DNA of 64,000 bases from an uncultured Rubrobacteraceae bacterium (GTDB lineage Bacteria > Actinomycetota > Rubrobacteria > Rubrobacterales > Rubrobacteraceae), in the NCBI GenBank assembly GCA_902806095.1, contig CADCVF010000042.1, positions 1-64,000 of the forward strand. The letters are read 5' to 3'. The notes under the pieces are model-generated. The model was given only the letters and a program-made list of their open reading frames with translations, was not told the DNA's origin and searched no databases. This document shows positions 27,416 through 36,300 of this stretch, in pieces. The number at the start of each line of letters is the position of its first letter. Position 1 is the stretch's first letter. The translations under genes and the position numbers were made by a program.

Positions 27416-27505
27416 CATTCGGATACAAGAGATAGGCGGTATCCGAAAAAGCTGAATTGCTGACAAGCGAAGGCGAAGCCTGAGCGTGCTGACTAGCTGA
27501 CAACT
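27416..27505. repeat. Composite intergenic repeat, second copy
   Basis: The 26-base block at 27416-27441 is identical to 8939-8964. It is followed by AAAGCTGAATTGCTGACAAG and, after a short spacer, GTGCTGACTAGCTGACAACT. The 348-base gap 27255-27602 otherwise contains only the dehydratase upstream region and the protease operon leader. Confidence 0.75.
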
Positions 27506-27602
27506 AGCCGTTTTTCCTGGTGGAAACTAGCCGGACGGGTGATGCCCGGCTTCTGGCCCGGGGATAGAGTATGCGTGTAAACCAAAGGATCAGGAGAGAG
27601 CT

Positions 27603-28505
27603 ATGGAGCAGATGGATACACTTTCCGCCCTGTCGGCCGGCATGGCGGATGCGGTAGAGAAAGCGGCGGCGTCGGTCGTGCGGGTAAACGGCCGGAGGCG
27701 TCGTTCTGGGAGCGGCGTGGTCTTTGCGCACAACAAGGTGCTGACGGCGAGCCACGTGCTCGAACGCGAGGAGGACCTCTCGGTAGAGACCGCCGACGGT
27801 AAGACTCTATCCGCGCGGTTCGCTGGGAGGGATCACTCCACAGACCTCGCGGTGCTGACCGTGGAGGGCCTCGACATCGAACCGGCAACGCCCGTAGAAG
27901 GGGAAGCCAGGGTCGGCCAGATCTCGCTGGCCGTGGGCAGCCACTCGCGCGGCGAGGGGCCGAGGGCCACGCTTGGGGTGGTTAGTGCCGTCGGAGGCCC
28001 GGTCCGCACCCGGCGGGGACCGAGGCTTGAACGTTTCATCCAGACCGACGCGACGCCTTATCCTGGATTTTCTGGAGGCCCGCTCATCGACGTGCGGGGG
28101 AACGTACTCGGCATCCTGGTCTCGGGCTGGGGACGCGGCGCGGCATTCGCCATCCCGGCCGACGTAGCCTGGCGTACCGCGGGTGCGCTCTCGGAGCGGG
28201 GCTCCGTCAAAAGCGGATACCTCGGCATCCTGAGCCAGCCGGTGCGCCTCCCCGACGGACAGCGGCTCGGCCTTACGCAGAGGGGCGGGCTGCTTGTCGT
28301 TGGCGTCGAGGAAGGCAGCCCCGCGGACCGCGGCGGCCTCATAGTGGGCGACATCATTGCGACGCTGGACGGCCAGCCCGTCGAGGACACCGACGACCTG
28401 CTCGTGCTGCTTGCGGGCGATAGGGTCGGTCGTCCCGTATCCGTCAAGCTCGTGCGTGGCGGCGAGCTCACGGACGTCGAGATAACCGTGGGCGAGCGTG
28501 GTTAG
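27603..28505 (+). CDS. Cytoplasmic HtrA-like serine protease with PDZ domain (first copy)
   Basis: The 300-residue protein has a trypsin-like S1C domain with catalytic H51 (TASHVL), D81 (STDLAVL) and S157 (PGFSGGPL). A PDZ domain spans about 205-298 (GGLLVVGVEEGSPADRGG, then GDIIATLDGQPV). There is no signal peptide or membrane anchor, unusual because most HtrA/Deg proteins are exported. AGGAGAGAGCT precedes the ATG. It is the first of three tightly linked genes: a second HtrA-like protease begins 11 bases later and a LuxR-type regulator follows. It probably cleaves or senses misfolded or specific cytoplasmic proteins. Confidence 0.88.
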   Translation: MEQMDTLSALSAGMADAVEKAAASVVRVNGRRRRSGSGVVFAHNKVLTASHVLEREEDLSVETADGKTLSARFAGRDHSTDLAVLTVEGLDIEPATPVEGEARVGQISLAVGSHSRGEGPRATLGVVSAVGGPVRTRRGPRLERFIQTDATPYPGFSGGPLIDVRGNVLGILVSGWGRGAAFAIPADVAWRTAGALSERGSVKSGYLGILSQPVRLPDGQRLGLTQRGGLLVVGVEEGSPADRGGLIVGDIIATLDGQPVEDTDDLLVLLAGDRVGRPVSVKLVRGGELTDVEITVGERG

Positions 28506-28516
28506 GAGTTCGTGAG

Positions 28517-29404
28517 ATGTCCGAAGTATCAGGAGACTCTTCTGCCGTCCTGGCCGGCGCGCGGATGATAGAGGATGCGCAGCGGAGCGTCGTACAGGTC
28601 CGCAGCAGCGGCCGGGGTATAGGGGCGGGTGTGATCTGGCCCGGCGAAGGCCTCGTCATGACGAACCATCATGTGATCTCAGGACGACGCAGGAGAAATA
28701 ACATCAGGGTGGCCCTCCACGACGGCCGGGCGCTCGACGCTGACGTAGTAAAGAGCGATAGGAGCCTGGACCTCGCGCTCCTCAGGATGGAGGGCGACCG
28801 TGGGGATCTTCCTGCGGCTCCGGTCGGGGACTCGGATACCTTGCGAGTTGGCGAACTAGTCTACGCTATCGGGCATCCCTGGGGCAGTGTCGGGGCCGTG
28901 AGCGCCGGCATCGTTGGCGGTGTCGGCGAGCTTCGTGGGCCAGGCCGGGGTTCCTCAGCGCGCTACGTGAGATCTGACGTCGCCCTCGCACCTGGGAACT
29001 CGGGCGGACCACTCCTGAACGCCAGGGGCGAGGTCGTCGCCATCAACGCGATGATATTCGGCCAGATGGCGCTCTCTATCCCAAGCAAAGCGGCAGAAGC
29101 CTGGGTCGCAGGAGGACGCCGCCCGAGGCTAGGTATCGGGGTCTTGCCCGTCGAGGTACCGGTATCTCTGAGCCGGGAAGCCGGACTAGTTATCGTCGGC
29201 GTCGAGACCGGTGGCGCCGCCGACAGGGCCGGCCTGCTTGTCGGCGACGTCTTGCTCGCCGTCTCCGGGGCACCGCTCGGGAAGCCGGGGACCCTGTTGG
29301 AGGCCGTAGCGCGGGCCGATGATGCCGTCTCCTTGCGCGTGATGCGCGGCGGTAAAATCATGGTCATGGAAGTGCGCCTGAAAGAGTCGGGACGCGCCGC
29401 ATGA
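28517..29404 (+). CDS. Cytoplasmic HtrA-like serine protease with PDZ domain (second copy)
   Basis: The 295-residue paralogue of the preceding gene has H52 (TNHHVIS), D85 (SLDLALL) and S162 (PGNSGGPLL), so all catalytic residues are present. A C-terminal PDZ domain reads GLVIVGVETGGAADRAGLLV, GDVLLAVSGAPL. It also lacks a signal peptide. The two copies differ in active-site loops (GFSGG versus GNSGG) and probably in PDZ ligand preference. The stop overlaps the ATG of the regulator gene (ATGA), meaning translational coupling. Hetero-oligomer formation by the two proteases is an inference. Confidence 0.88.
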   Translation: MSEVSGDSSAVLAGARMIEDAQRSVVQVRSSGRGIGAGVIWPGEGLVMTNHHVISGRRRRNNIRVALHDGRALDADVVKSDRSLDLALLRMEGDRGDLPAAPVGDSDTLRVGELVYAIGHPWGSVGAVSAGIVGGVGELRGPGRGSSARYVRSDVALAPGNSGGPLLNARGEVVAINAMIFGQMALSIPSKAAEAWVAGGRRPRLGIGVLPVEVPVSLSREAGLVIVGVETGGAADRAGLLVGDVLLAVSGAPLGKPGTLLEAVARADDAVSLRVMRGGKIMVMEVRLKESGRAA

Positions 29405-30027
29405 CGCCTACGCGGGTGTTCGTCGTGGCCCCGACCCCCACCATGCGGGCGGGGCTGCGTTCGATGCTCGCGGCCGTCGAGACCGCCGACTTGCTGGTCG
29501 TCGGTGAAGCCGGTCTATCCGCCGGACCCGTCCCCCCGCTCTCCGGAGCCGATGTGGTACTCGTCGCAGACGAGGGGTTGCTCGAAGAGACCGCGCTTTC
29601 CGTCTCCGAAGACGGTACCCAGTCGCTTCTCTTACTCTCGGAAGACGAAGCTGAAGCGTCGAGGTTGCGCACCTTGTCTCTCAGAGGTTGGGGTGTCGTG
29701 CCGCCTGACGCCCCGTCGGAGGAGCTGGGGGCCGCCGTCGCCGCGGTTGCCCATGGCCTCACCGTCCTCCCCAAAACCCTGGCCGAGCGTTTGCTCGACG
29801 AGCCTGCGACGGCCGTCGAGGATCTCTCGGATCCGTTGACCGCGCGCGAGAGCGAGGTGCTCGATCTACTCGGGCATGGACTCTCCAACAAGATGATCGC
29901 GCGCGAGCTCCACATCAGCGAACACACGGTCAAGTTCCATATCTCCTCCCTCTACTCCAAGCTCGGGGTAAGCAACCGCGCCGAGGCTGTCAGCCAGGGC
30001 GCCCGACACGGTCTCATCTCTCTTTGA
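29401..30027 (+). CDS. LuxR/NarL-type regulator with degenerate receiver domain
   Basis: The 208-residue protein has a good LuxR HTH at about 143-205 (LTARESEVLDLLGHGLSNKM, then HTVKFHISSLYSKLGV). The N-terminal ~120 residues align with a response-regulator receiver but lack its key residues. The DD pair is replaced by APTPT, and the phospho-acceptor position (DVVLVADEG, around residue 56) is alanine. The conserved lysine region reads VVPPD. It is therefore unlikely to be controlled by normal phosphorylation. It is translationally coupled to two HtrA-like proteases, so control by proteolysis or protein binding is a reasonable inference. Confidence 0.85.
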   Translation: MTPTRVFVVAPTPTMRAGLRSMLAAVETADLLVVGEAGLSAGPVPPLSGADVVLVADEGLLEETALSVSEDGTQSLLLLSEDEAEASRLRTLSLRGWGVVPPDAPSEELGAAVAAVAHGLTVLPKTLAERLLDEPATAVEDLSDPLTARESEVLDLLGHGLSNKMIARELHISEHTVKFHISSLYSKLGVSNRAEAVSQGARHGLISL

Positions 30028-30030
30028 GAG

Positions 30031-30164
30031 AGCAATTCAGCAAGTCAGCACGCTCCGGCTTTTAGCCTTCGCTTGTCAGCACGTCAGCCAGCACCCGAAA
30101 GCTGAAATGCTGACAAGTCGCCTGGCGACGTGCTGAAATGAGGAAGGGTCGACCCTTCCTCATT
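30031..30164. repeat. Repeat cluster with 28-bp perfect palindrome
   Basis: Two facing copies of the GCTGAAATGCTGAC-type unit (30031-30140) follow the protease operon. They are joined to a perfect palindrome at 30137-30164 centred on GGGTCGACCC. The palindrome could act as a bidirectional terminator or protein site. A similar pairing of repeat and palindrome is at 37015-37182. Confidence 0.75.
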
Positions 30165-30226
30165 CCGCTGTAGAATGGAGTCGACCATGCGGGGTGACGG
30201 AAGGCAGGGCCAACTCGGGTTCCCCT

Positions 30227-30955
30227 ATGAAGACGGCGATTCTACCTATCCTTGCACTGCTTTGCCTCCTCGTTGGGTGCGAGGAAGATAGGAATACAGG
30301 GGAGTCGCGTTCTGTTGGCGGGGATAGGCAGCGTGAACCTGTAGTTCGTCAGGAGCCTACGCGGGTGATCGTCACCAGTGACGACGCCTCGCTCCCCGAC
30401 GGTTGCCACCCACGGCAGGTTGCCGGGCTCGTGATCTCCTTCGTCGATGCTTTCAACAGTGGGGATCAGGCGACGTTGTCCCGCATCTTCTTCGTGTCCG
30501 AGGGCCCTAGTCCCCCTGATTTTGCGGAGAGGGGCTACGAGCCGTGGTCCTGGTACACCGTGGGCAAGGTGGAGGTAGGGGGCAAGATAGAGAGCAGCTT
30601 CGTTACCTACGATCAAGGCGAGCTGCTCCGCTACTTCGCCAAGCGACACAGAAAGGGAGAGCAACTGAGGCTGCTCAAGATCAGCCTGACGCAGACGGGT
30701 CTGCTCGGTAAAGTCGACAACGTTGGCTTTGTCTACGTCCTGAACCGGACCGCCAGGGACCTGGAACCCGGCCTCGGTGGACCGGCTCGGATAGCCTCGG
30801 GCCAAGGGGCTATCAACTGCAGGAACCGCCGCATCTTCGCCTGGCGCATGGATATGAAGGCCGAAGAGCGCCGTACGTCCCGCGAAGCGGCCGACTGGCT
30901 CTGTACCGACCCGCCTAATTGGAAGCCGGGCAAGGCTGTCGTCGCGTGTACTTAA
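30227..30955 (+). CDS. Putative lipoprotein
   Basis: From ATG 30227 the protein starts with a lipoprotein signal, MKTAILPILALLCLLVGC, whose lipobox cysteine is residue 18. About 225 residues follow the signal. They include SFVDAFNSGDQATLSRIFFV, which resembles NTF2-like or lumazine-binding folds in secreted proteins. Two later cysteines (INCRN and WLCTD) plus a near-terminal cysteine might form disulfides. It would be anchored on the outer face of the membrane. No family is recognised and no operon partner is evident. Confidence 0.7.
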   Translation: MKTAILPILALLCLLVGCEEDRNTGESRSVGGDRQREPVVRQEPTRVIVTSDDASLPDGCHPRQVAGLVISFVDAFNSGDQATLSRIFFVSEGPSPPDFAERGYEPWSWYTVGKVEVGGKIESSFVTYDQGELLRYFAKRHRKGEQLRLLKISLTQTGLLGKVDNVGFVYVLNRTARDLEPGLGGPARIASGQGAINCRNRRIFAWRMDMKAEERRTSREAADWLCTDPPNWKPGKAVVACT

Positions 30956-33063: not shown

Positions 33064-33708
33064 TCAGGGAGCGTCTACGAGACCGCGGCGGACGGCTATT
33101 CTCGCCGCCTCGGTACGGTTCTGGGCTTCGAGCTTGGCGAGGATGGAGCCGACGTGGAACTTGACCGTCCGTTCGGAGATAAAGAGTTGTTCTGCGATCT
33201 CGGAGTTTTTCAGGCCGCTTGCGACGAGATCGAGCACCTCGAGTTCCCTGGGTGTGAGGCGGCGGTTCGAAGGGACGTTTCCCTCAGGGTCTATACGCTC
33301 GAGCAGCCGGTCCGCGACGGCAGGTTCGAGGAGGGAGCCTCCGGCCTGGACGGTGCGGATGGCGCCGAAGATCTCCTTTCGGGACGCGCCCTTGAGCAGG
33401 TAGCCGCGGGCTCCAGCTCGCAGAGAGCCGAGAATCCTCTCGTCCGAATCGTAGGCCGTAAAGACGACGGTGCGTGCGCGCGAACCCGCGTCGCGGAGTC
33501 TTTCGAGGGCTTGGACGCCGTCGGTCCCTGGCATTTCCAGATCCAGCAGTATCACATCAGGGTCAAGACTCTCTGCGAGCCTGACTACCTCATCCCCGTC
33601 AGCTGCTTCGCCCACGACCTCGAAGTCAGGCTGGGTGGCTAGCACGGCGACGAGGCCCTCGCGCAGCATCGGGTGGTCGTCGGCGACGAGGAGCCTGACC
33701 TTATCCAC
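33064..33708 (-). CDS. NarL/LuxR-family response regulator
   Basis: The 214-residue regulator has a complete receiver: D10/D11 ([13 protein letters not shown]), phospho-acceptor D56 ([11 protein letters not shown]), and the [24 protein letters not shown] region with the conserved lysine. The HTH ([20 protein letters not shown], then [12 protein letters not shown]) is at the C-terminus. It overlaps the end of the histidine kinase gene by eight bases, so it is its cognate partner. It should bind DNA as a phosphorylated dimer. Confidence 0.95.
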
Positions 33709-34894
33709 CCTGGAGTCCTTCGAGCGGCACGGTGACCTCGATTCGGGTTCCCTCGCCTGGGCTACTCTCTATCGACAGGGAGCCGCCCAGCATCTCCACC
33801 CTCTCCCTCATGCCGACGATGCCGTGCCGATCATCCGGGGTACAGGTGGGGTCGAAACCGTGGCCGTCGTCTTTGACGAGGAGTTGCACCGCTCCTGGTG
33901 TGGCCACGAGCCTGACCGTCACACGGCCCGCGGCCGCGTGGCCGGCGATGTTGGTGAGAGCCTCCTGGCAGACGCGGTAGAGGGCGACCTCGACCCGCGG
34001 CGGGAGCGGGCGGCTGCCGTTCACGGTCCCGAACCTCGTGGCCACGCCCGTCTCCACTTCCCAGCGGTCGACGAGAGTCTTCAGCGCTTCTGGCAGCGAG
34101 CGGCCTTCGAGTGGAGCGGCACGGAGGTCGAGGACCGAGCGACGCGCCTCATCGAGGTTGGCCCTGGTAAGCGAGAGGGCGCGGCGCAGCGGTTCGCGGG
34201 CGCGCTCGGCGCCTGACTCCTCGTCGAGTAAGGCTTCGGCCGACTCGAGTTGGAGCCCCGTGGCGGTAAGCCCCTGGGCGAGGGTATCGTGGATCTCACG
34301 GGCCAGGCGGTTGCGCTCCTCGACGGCGCCGAGCCTGGTGCTACGGTCGAAGAGGCTGGCCCGCTCGACGGCGATGGCCAGCAGGTCGCCTATGGTGGAG
34401 AGAAGCTGCAGGTCTTCGGGTAAGAGACCTCGCCATTGGGGGCTCGCGACGTTCATGACGCCGAGCTTCTTCTGCCCGGCGTAGAGGGGGATACTTGCGT
34501 GGTAGCGCAGGCCCCCCGTGCCGTCGACCAGGCCTTTGAGACGGGTGCAAGTCAGGACGTTTACGTTGGCAGCGCCCTCCAGGTCACCCTTCTTGTAGGT
34601 GTCGAGGCAATAACAGTAGCCCGAGCCATCCATGCGGCGCGGGTCATCAGCGAGGGCCGGAGGGAGGTTGCGGGCCGCGGCGAGGTAGGGCTCCGGGGAA
34701 GAATCGTCCACGAGCCAGATCCAGGCCGTACGCAAGCCCAGTAGCTCGGCTACCTGCGACAAAGTGAATCCGAGCGCCTCACCCAGCTCGACAGAGCGGT
34801 TGAGCTCGCGCGCTATCTCGTTGAGCACCGAGAGCTCGTGGTTGAGCCGCTGCAGGTCTCTGGTCTCTTGCGCCTCAGAAGCATCTGCCATCAC
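33701..34894 (-). CDS. GAF-domain sensor histidine kinase (HisKA_3 type)
   Basis: The 397-residue kinase has a GAF domain at about 25-178, a HisKA_3 dimerisation helix with phospho-acceptor H202 ([14 protein letters not shown]), and a HATPase_c domain ending [13 protein letters not shown]-like ([20 protein letters not shown]). There are no membrane segments, so it senses in the cytoplasm. The GAF domain contains C94, C96 and C116 (GYCYCLDTY and VLTCTRLKG), a possible metal or Fe-S site. It starts at GTG 34894 with GAGGAGG before it. The response regulator gene follows with an 8-base overlap. Confidence 0.93.
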
Positions 34895-35055
34895 GCCGCA
34901 CCTCCTCTTGCGGGAGTTTAGCAGCGGGATACGACAACAGGGCTTGAAACTAGCCGTTCGGGTGATGTGCTGCCCCCACGACGAATGTAGAGTGGGACGA
35001 ACGTTTCTAGCGGGAGGTCTTGGATGTTAGCCAGGAGCATCAGGGTCGGCAGAGC

Positions 35056-36300
35056 ATGGCTGGTTTTCGATGGCTGAATTGGAGGGGTGGTGTGAGAGAC
35101 CTCAGTGAGCCCGAAGGCCTGAGGGCCCGGCTGTTACGCCCACAGGTATTGCGCGATCCTTCCGAAGATAACCGTACCTCGACCTGGCTCGAGTTGTTCT
35201 TCGACCTCTGCTTCGTCGTTGCTGTCGCGGCGCTCGCCAAGGGACTGCACGACGACCCGACGTTCGGCGGCGCGTTGCGCTTCGCCGCCTTTTTCATACC
35301 CGTGTGGTGGGCGTGGATGGGCTTCACCTGGTACGCGACCGCCTTCGACAACGACGACGTTGTCTACCGGACGGCGTTGCTAGGGGCGATGCTCTGCATA
35401 CTCTGGCTGGCCGCGTCTATCTACGGCCTCTACGAAGGAGAGACCGCCAGCTTCGTGCTTGCCTATGTGGCGATGAAGCTGCTGCTCGTGGGGCTCTACG
35501 CCAGGGCGTGGCGCGACGCGACGAACGTCCGTCACTTCGCAGGCCTGTACGCGATCGGGAACGCGGTCGGGGCGACGATCTGGCTGTCTTCGTTGCTAGT
35601 GCCCGTCCCTGGAAGGTATGGTATCTGGGCGCTGGCGCTACTCGTGGAGATCCTTACGCCGATGATGGCGGTGAGCGTAGCCTATCGGGGGACGTCCTAC
35701 GCGCCAAGGGTCTTCCATCCCGAACACATCCCCGAGCGCTACGGTCTGTTCACCCTGATCGTGCTCGGCGAGTCGGTCCTCGCTGTGGCCGCGGGGACGG
35801 CAGGGACAGGATGGTATCCCGCTGCCGTGGCGACGGGGATATTCGGGTTCGTGATCGCCGCCTGCATCTGGTGGCTCTACTTCGACTACGTCGGGTCTTC
35901 GGGACTCCAGATCAGCCCGCGCGCCTCTTTCTACTGGGGTTACGGGCACCTCCCGATCTACGCCGGCATCGCCGCCTCTGGCGTTGGCATCCTGCTCGCC
36001 ATCGAGGGTGCCGCCGAAACGACGGCGCATGGAGACCTCGGCGGCCTGGCGATCCTGGGCGGCGGCCTGGCGATCTATCTGCTGGCCGTAAGCTTTATCC
36101 ACTGGGTGAACCGGGGTTCGCTGGACGACCGCGCTCTCTTCGCCAGGCTCGCAACCGCCGCGTTCCTGATTCTCCTCGTACCACTCGGCTTTTTCATTTC
36201 CCCGCTCGTCTTCGCCGCCCTCACCGCCCTCGCCCTGCTCGCCCTGACGACCTACGAGACGATCAGCACGGACGTGCCAGGGGATCCTCCAGCAGGATAG
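35056..36300 (+). CDS. Low temperature requirement protein A (LtrA) family membrane protein
   Basis: The protein of ~414 residues begins with a short cytoplasmic stretch, then TSTWLELFFDLCFVVAVAAL, the signature start of LtrA. About 10-12 hydrophobic segments follow, including WVAWMGFTWY-like VWWAWMGFTWYATAFDNDD, HIPERYGLFTLIVLGESVLA and WWLYFDYVG. LtrA proteins are polytopic membrane proteins of uncertain biochemical role, linked to cold growth in Listeria. The start is uncertain: ATG 35056 is used here; TTG 35020 has GGGAGG but too close. It is monocistronic. Confidence 0.9.
   Translation: MAGFRWLNWRGGVRDLSEPEGLRARLLRPQVLRDPSEDNRTSTWLELFFDLCFVVAVAALAKGLHDDPTFGGALRFAAFFIPVWWAWMGFTWYATAFDNDDVVYRTALLGAMLCILWLAASIYGLYEGETASFVLAYVAMKLLLVGLYARAWRDATNVRHFAGLYAIGNAVGATIWLSSLLVPVPGRYGIWALALLVEILTPMMAVSVAYRGTSYAPRVFHPEHIPERYGLFTLIVLGESVLAVAAGTAGTGWYPAAVATGIFGFVIAACIWWLYFDYVGSSGLQISPRASFYWGYGHLPIYAGIAASGVGILLAIEGAAETTAHGDLGGLAILGGGLAIYLLAVSFIHWVNRGSLDDRALFARLATAAFLILLVPLGFFISPLVFAALTALALLALTTYETISTDVPGDPPAG

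Follow-up and report, generated by a model that had tools for sequence, protein, structure and literature searches.

A signal-less HtrA-like PDZ protein and a NarL-type pseudo-receiver regulator form a conserved gene pair with a candidate operator

The PDZ domains of HtrA proteins such as DegS, AlgW and DegP bind C-termini and gate the protease. DegS and AlgW are periplasmic or membrane-anchored and cleave a membrane anti-sigma factor (RseA or MucA). In the HspR-DnaK and HrcA-GroE systems, a transcription factor controls the gene of a proteostasis protein that is thought to modulate the factor; HspR and HrcA are repressors paired with chaperones, and Helicobacter pylori is said to be an example of such chaperone feedback loops. 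MamO and MamE are a pair of HtrA-like proteins, one degenerate and one active, that serve magnetosome biomineralisation, and catalysis was lost independently more than once among them (PMC4794232). Atypical response regulators with pseudo-receivers include Rem with MirA, NblR, and WhiI with BldM, and a 2025 review concluded that the mechanisms activating or inactivating pseudo-receivers remain a mystery (PMC12632262). The same review makes no mention of a protease, HtrA or PDZ (PMC12632262).

The window, a 64,000-nucleotide stretch of DNA from an uncultured Rubrobacteraceae bacterium, carries an operon of two HtrA-like genes (P1 and P2) and a regulator gene (R), with the following features.

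27504-27520, + strand: operator repeat 1, CTAGCCGTTTTTCCTGG, in tandem with repeat 2 and 23 bp upstream of it
27527-27544, + strand: operator repeat 2, CTAGCCGGACGGGTGATG, overlapping the expected -35 position
27565-27570, + strand: -10-like hexamer TAGAGT, 20 nt after the operator
27603-28505, + strand: P1, 300 aa, Trypsin_2 and PDZ_2 (Pfam), signal-less S1C-PDZ protein, conserved partner of R
28517-29404, + strand: P2, 295 aa, Trypsin_2 and PDZ (Pfam), signal-less S1C-PDZ protein, optional member
29401-30027, + strand: R, 208 aa, NarL/LuxR-type regulator with a GerE helix-turn-helix (HTH) and a pseudo-receiver
30016-30024, + strand: codons of the R tail, Ile-Ser-Leu-COOH, candidate PDZ ligand

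Both P1 and P2 have the HtrA/Deg (S1C) architecture of a trypsin-like domain followed by a PDZ domain (Pfam). The catalytic residues in the window sequence are H51/D81/S157 in P1, which has an atypical GFSGG with Phe ahead of the catalytic Ser, and H52/D85/S162 in P2, which has GNSGG. The first-pass annotation was therefore correct in reading two complete S1C-PDZ proteases, as it was in describing R as a LuxR-type regulator whose gene overlaps the upstream protease gene by 4 nt (ATGA, 29401-29404). P1 and P2 are separated by 11 nt, and a Shine-Dalgarno-like AGGAG is found at both. With scores of 187 and 192 bits, P1 and P2 missed the curated cut-off of NCBIfam degP_htrA_DO (416 bits). Neither protein has a hydrophobic N-terminal segment that could be an export signal or anchor, and residues 2-22 of the P1 model (pLDDT 93) form a helix in the place of an export signal. 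No signal peptide or anchor was found in the relatives, in which the few higher hydrophobicity values lie upstream of the conserved starts. The cytoplasmic location first suggested was thus upheld, since the proteases look cytosolic at every locus checked, and no signal peptide was hidden under a corrected start in the window or its relatives. The structure matches of the P1 model were DegQ, DegP, DegS, AlgW and MucD, and P1 is like DegS and AlgW in its HtrA fold, its C-terminus-sensing type of PDZ domain and its tie to transcription. It differs from them in that P1 and P2 lack export signals and P1 is often catalytically dead. There is no anti-sigma or sigma factor in the operon and no membrane anti-sigma substrate among the recurrent neighbours.

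The GerE/LuxR HTH (E 2.4e-21) was the sole Pfam match of R above the cut-off, and Response_reg was not detected. The AlphaFold model of R, built with 62 relatives (pLDDT 92.9), consists of a receiver fold and the HTH, with ChrA, VraR, LiaR and NarL as the nearest structures (Foldseek). In place of the acidic pair R has A10-P11, while the phospho-Asp is replaced by A56 and the Lys by P101, in agreement with the earlier description of a receiver with Ala for the phospho-Asp and without the acidic pair. The acidic pair and the Asp occurred together in none of 99 R proteins, and the receiver Lys was retained in only two. The decay is graded, since many cyanobacterial and some Chloroflexota R proteins retain the Asp without the full pair. 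R is hence a pseudo-receiver regulator, with the receiver fold and without the key phosphotransfer residues, and as judged from its residues it cannot use the normal phosphorelay. These counts fit the proposal that R would act without phosphorylation. No histidine kinase is encoded in the operon; a complete kinase/regulator pair is encoded separately, at a distance of about 4 kb. R resembles Rem, NblR and WhiI, which are regulated by other means, in having a receiver fold without phosphotransfer residues, and differs from them in having a genetically fixed HtrA-PDZ partner across phyla.

When 84,980 species genomes were scanned with an alignment of R, 80 loci were obtained, from Chloroflexota, Cyanobacteriota, Acidobacteriota, ANGP1 and Rubrobacteria. 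Only loci with S[ED]HTVKFH were taken, so the conservation of this helix is by construction; adjacency, tail and promoter were not selection criteria. Many of the scan records are metagenome bins, in which mis-binning is possible. When a Deinococcus locus was added to the 80, P1 adjoined R at 76 of the 81 R loci, three of the remaining five being contig ends and the other two L095 and L107. A second protease-like match was present at 34 of the 81. In Rubrobacteria, the P1 orthologue adjoins the R orthologue wherever the contig permits, P2 lies between them in some genera and is missing in others, and in two cases the second protease is downstream of R. The P1-R pair is also found on a Deinococcus plasmid, and a Rubrobacter indicoceani plasmid carries protease-R-protease. 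A protease on a Thermomicrobium plasmid was rejected as a member of the unit, as no R adjoins it. The same gene order was observed at about 90 loci in several phyla and is far from a chance arrangement. The conserved core consists of P1 and R, with P2 as an optional member. The trio proposed as the module by the first-pass annotation therefore had to be reduced to P1-R, since many lineages have P2 elsewhere or not at all, and the unit itself extends well beyond its own genome into several phyla.

Among 397 Actinomycetota genomes, the R family (at least 202 bits) was separated from its paralogues (at most 178 bits) by a clean gap and occurred solely in Rubrobacteria, with protease neighbours. 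A protease neighbour was seen at 0/11 of the nearest R paralogues and a hydrophobic-x-hydrophobic end likewise at 0/11, and no other GerE locus in the window's own genome has a P1-like neighbour. The P1 and R trees have 40 of 86 splits in common, including the deepest, and the correlation of P1 and R distances is 0.79 compared with at most 0.11 in permutations, a value to which the species history common to both contributes. No extra conserved partner gene was found across phyla among the neighbours of the unit; in one Anaerolineales clade it lies near an electron-transport-like operon. An anti-phage defence reading was rejected, because the PADLOC matches are generic protease or HTH parts only.

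Several other elements surround the operon in the window. A dispersed repeat with the core GCTGACAAGCGAAGGC flanks it in opposite orientations (27451-27500 and 30037-30088). The core has 168 genome copies within one mismatch, compared with none for the reversed control, and this copy number ruled out the repeat as the R site. A perfect 28-bp palindrome, AATGAGGAAGGGTCGACCCTTCCTCATT (30137-30164), lies between R and a lipoprotein-like gene; it is absent at that place in relatives and was rejected as a conserved element. The lipoprotein-like gene itself (30194-30955, downstream of R) has no Pfam or NCBIfam match; it adjoins the unit in several Rubrobacteria with 53-96% identity and was not seen outside Rubrobacteria.

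The catalytic triad is broken in 25 of 90 P1 proteins, with at least five changes on the tree. Most cyanobacterial P1 proteins have His to Glu together with Ser to Ala and others have His to Asp, several Rubrobacteria P1 proteins have Ser to Gly or Ala, and one acidobacterial P1 has Ser to Ala. The PDZ domain is retained in all 93 P1 proteins, and its aromatic-hydrophobic-Gly (YLG-type) carboxylate loop in 92 of the 93, dead copies included. Since the triad was lost repeatedly while the PDZ was always kept, proteolysis is not the conserved function of P1. The residue ahead of the Ser is never Asn or Asp in true P1; in P2 it is Asn or His, and His-Asp-Ser is intact in all full-length P2 proteins. 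The PDZ is missing from some Chloroflexota P2. At L077, L079, L115, L118 and other Chloroflexota loci, the PDZ-less P2 proteins often end in hydrophobic residues (EGVI, EPLI, EGVL) and therefore might also be ligands of the P1 PDZ. At seven loci (L051, L054, L069, L073, L104, L106 and L134), P1 is dead and the operon lacks P2, so that proteolysis by the products of the operon cannot be the function common to the units. The earlier suggestion that protease activity or PDZ binding controls R is accordingly narrowed: activity does not hold as a general signal, and PDZ binding is the better option. The unit is like MamO/MamE in that a degenerate HtrA is paired with an active one and in its repeated independent loss of catalysis; it differs in that a dedicated transcription factor or operator is not described for MamO/MamE (PMC4794232).

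A hydrophobic-x-hydrophobic carboxyl end was found in all 81 R proteins, in 79 of them at an identical distance from the HTH, and is still present at L095 and L107, where no P1 adjoins. The tails of other GerE proteins of the same genome are variable and often polar. The last six residues of the R model are coil, and by its residues the R end looks like a candidate class II PDZ ligand. The tail could alternatively serve hydrophobic packing, folding or dimerisation.

A composite tandem-repeat operator (27504-27544 in the window) precedes P1 across phyla. When regions upstream of P1 were compared, ACTAGCCGnACGGGTGATG was located in Rubrobacteria at a distance of 66 to 104 nt upstream of P1. A second CTAGCC...CCnGG copy lies 23 bp upstream of it, and a -10-like hexamer follows after 20 nt; a TATACT/TACACT/TAGAGT-like hexamer stands at equal spacing at 37 of 71 loci. 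A search for gapped palindromes upstream of P1 found none common to the loci, because the operator is a direct repeat. With a matrix from Rubrobacteria only, 18 of 58 P1 promoters of other phyla exceeded the 99th percentile of same-locus control segments. With a matrix from Rubrobacteria and Chloroflexota, all 20 cyanobacterial and acidobacterial P1 promoters exceeded it, all on the plus strand. This leave-phylum-out result is the fair test, since a refined matrix that marked 71 of 74 P1 promoters was fitted to that set and its count is hence inflated. Where R is a separate upstream gene, the control level was passed upstream of P1 in 5 of 10 cases and upstream of R in none of 10. A recognisable operator was not found at the Deinococcus copy or at two Anaerolineales loci. 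Locus L239 (G031:C109) has a second P1 with its own operator, with a P1-P2-R operon on another contig of the same genome, a possible duplication or assembly mix. As the site overlaps the -35 position, activation is suggested, and R probably acts as an activator.

Repeat 2 also occurs with 0-1 mismatch in Rubrobacteria at the P1 promoters and at the promoter of ltrA, in the second region of interest in the window.

33064-33708, - strand: RR, canonical NarL-type regulator, recognition helix SERTVKFH, nearly that of R
33701-34894, - strand: HK, GAF histidine kinase, canonical pair with RR, divergent from the ltrA-side site
34949-34967, + strand: operator-like site, repeat 2 only, ACTAGCCGTTCGGGTGATG, upstream of ltrA
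34988-34993, + strand: -10-like hexamer TAGAGT of ltrA, at the same 20-nt spacing
35020-36300, + strand: ltrA, PF06772 membrane protein, putative second target

The site at 34949-34967 is the only other strong operator site in the genome. Together with N20-TAGAGT it recurs in six other Rubrobacteria genomes, either immediately ahead of ltrA or ahead of a gene of ABM-domain or peroxidase-like type (recognised by eye only), which leads on to ltrA in two of the six. For the partial second gene in the ltrA operons of relatives, Pfam yielded no match.

We propose that P1(-P2)-R is a cytoplasmic, self-contained proteostasis feedback loop, a model that we consider to stand at even chances as a whole. 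R would bind both tandem repeats, which lie just ahead of the -35 position of the P1 promoter and extend into it, and from there would switch on P1(-P2)-R; in Rubrobacteria it would act at ltrA as well. Binding of the operator by R is very probable from the sequence comparisons. P1, active or dead, would capture R by its free hydrophobic C-terminus, docked in the PDZ groove of P1, and thereby stop R from activating. Damaged client proteins with exposed C-termini would fill the PDZ and free R, so that more P1 and P2 would be made, with P2, where present, as the active protease. Docking of the R tail in the P1 PDZ is, on the residues of both, an evenly balanced proposition, and the sign and titration logic of the loop are more tentative, falling somewhat short of even. 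The proposed loop would resemble HspR-DnaK and HrcA-GroE in that R, through the conserved operator before P1, would govern the expression of P1, and P1 in turn may modulate R. It differs from them in using a NarL-type regulator, by site position probably an activator, with an HtrA-PDZ protein.

Stated more generally, the proposal is that four or more phyla possess a new class of cytoplasmic signalling system. A PDZ protein of HtrA fold, in many cases a pseudoprotease, would stand there in place of the sensor kinase for a pseudo-receiver regulator; it would sense unfolded C-termini through competition for its PDZ and release the regulator to activate the shared operon. Phosphorylation would play no part, and many lineages would dispense with proteolysis as well. 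We regard this as possible, with doubt outweighing belief. An alternative account, in which the protease operon is switched on by R without any feedback from P1 or P2 and R is set by its own amount, a pseudo-receiver ligand or another protein, seems to us unlikely. In its favour, the operator precedes P1 in both gene orders, which makes P1 a target. Regulator genes often neighbour their targets, and several pseudo-receiver regulators are possibly constitutively active or regulated by availability (PMC12632262). This account leaves unexplained, however, why the hydrophobic R tail keeps a fixed length across phyla while paralogue tails vary, and why a dead P1 with an intact PDZ is retained beside R, sometimes without P2.

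Proteolytic control, with P2 or an active P1 cleaving, degrading or trimming R to its active form, would agree with the His-Asp-Ser of full-length P2, the intact P1 triad of the window and the gating of HtrA proteases through PDZ-bound C-termini; the seven loci with a dead P1 and no operon P2 nevertheless argue that cleavage by P1 or P2 is not the shared mechanism, and we judge this reading improbable. A role of R as partner or competitor of the canonical HK/RR pair, for example through heterodimers at shared operators, appears very improbable. The canonical RR shares most of the recognition helix of R and might bind the same site, the RR gene is near the R operon in several Rubrobacteria and adjoins the second operator site, and WhiI-BldM provides a precedent (PMC12632262). 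However, the kinase also occurs in Rubrobacteria without R (e.g. G013, G027 and G028), which have no site within 2 mismatches, so that R is favoured as the binder; several kinase loci have no site, and no such pair recurs beside the unit in other phyla.

No description of a P1-R-type system was found by full-text search of open-access papers, in line with the first-pass statement that no described system with the trio is known. In the large natural P1-R family, a pseudo-receiver regulator comes with a fixed partner, catalytic knock-outs of that partner that arose in nature, an assayable operator and a candidate docking motif of three residues, and for this reason the family makes the question of pseudo-receiver activation directly testable. 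If the proposed loop is true, HtrA signalling would extend from the envelope to the cytosol, and the family would be a widespread further case of a protease fold retained as a binding module.
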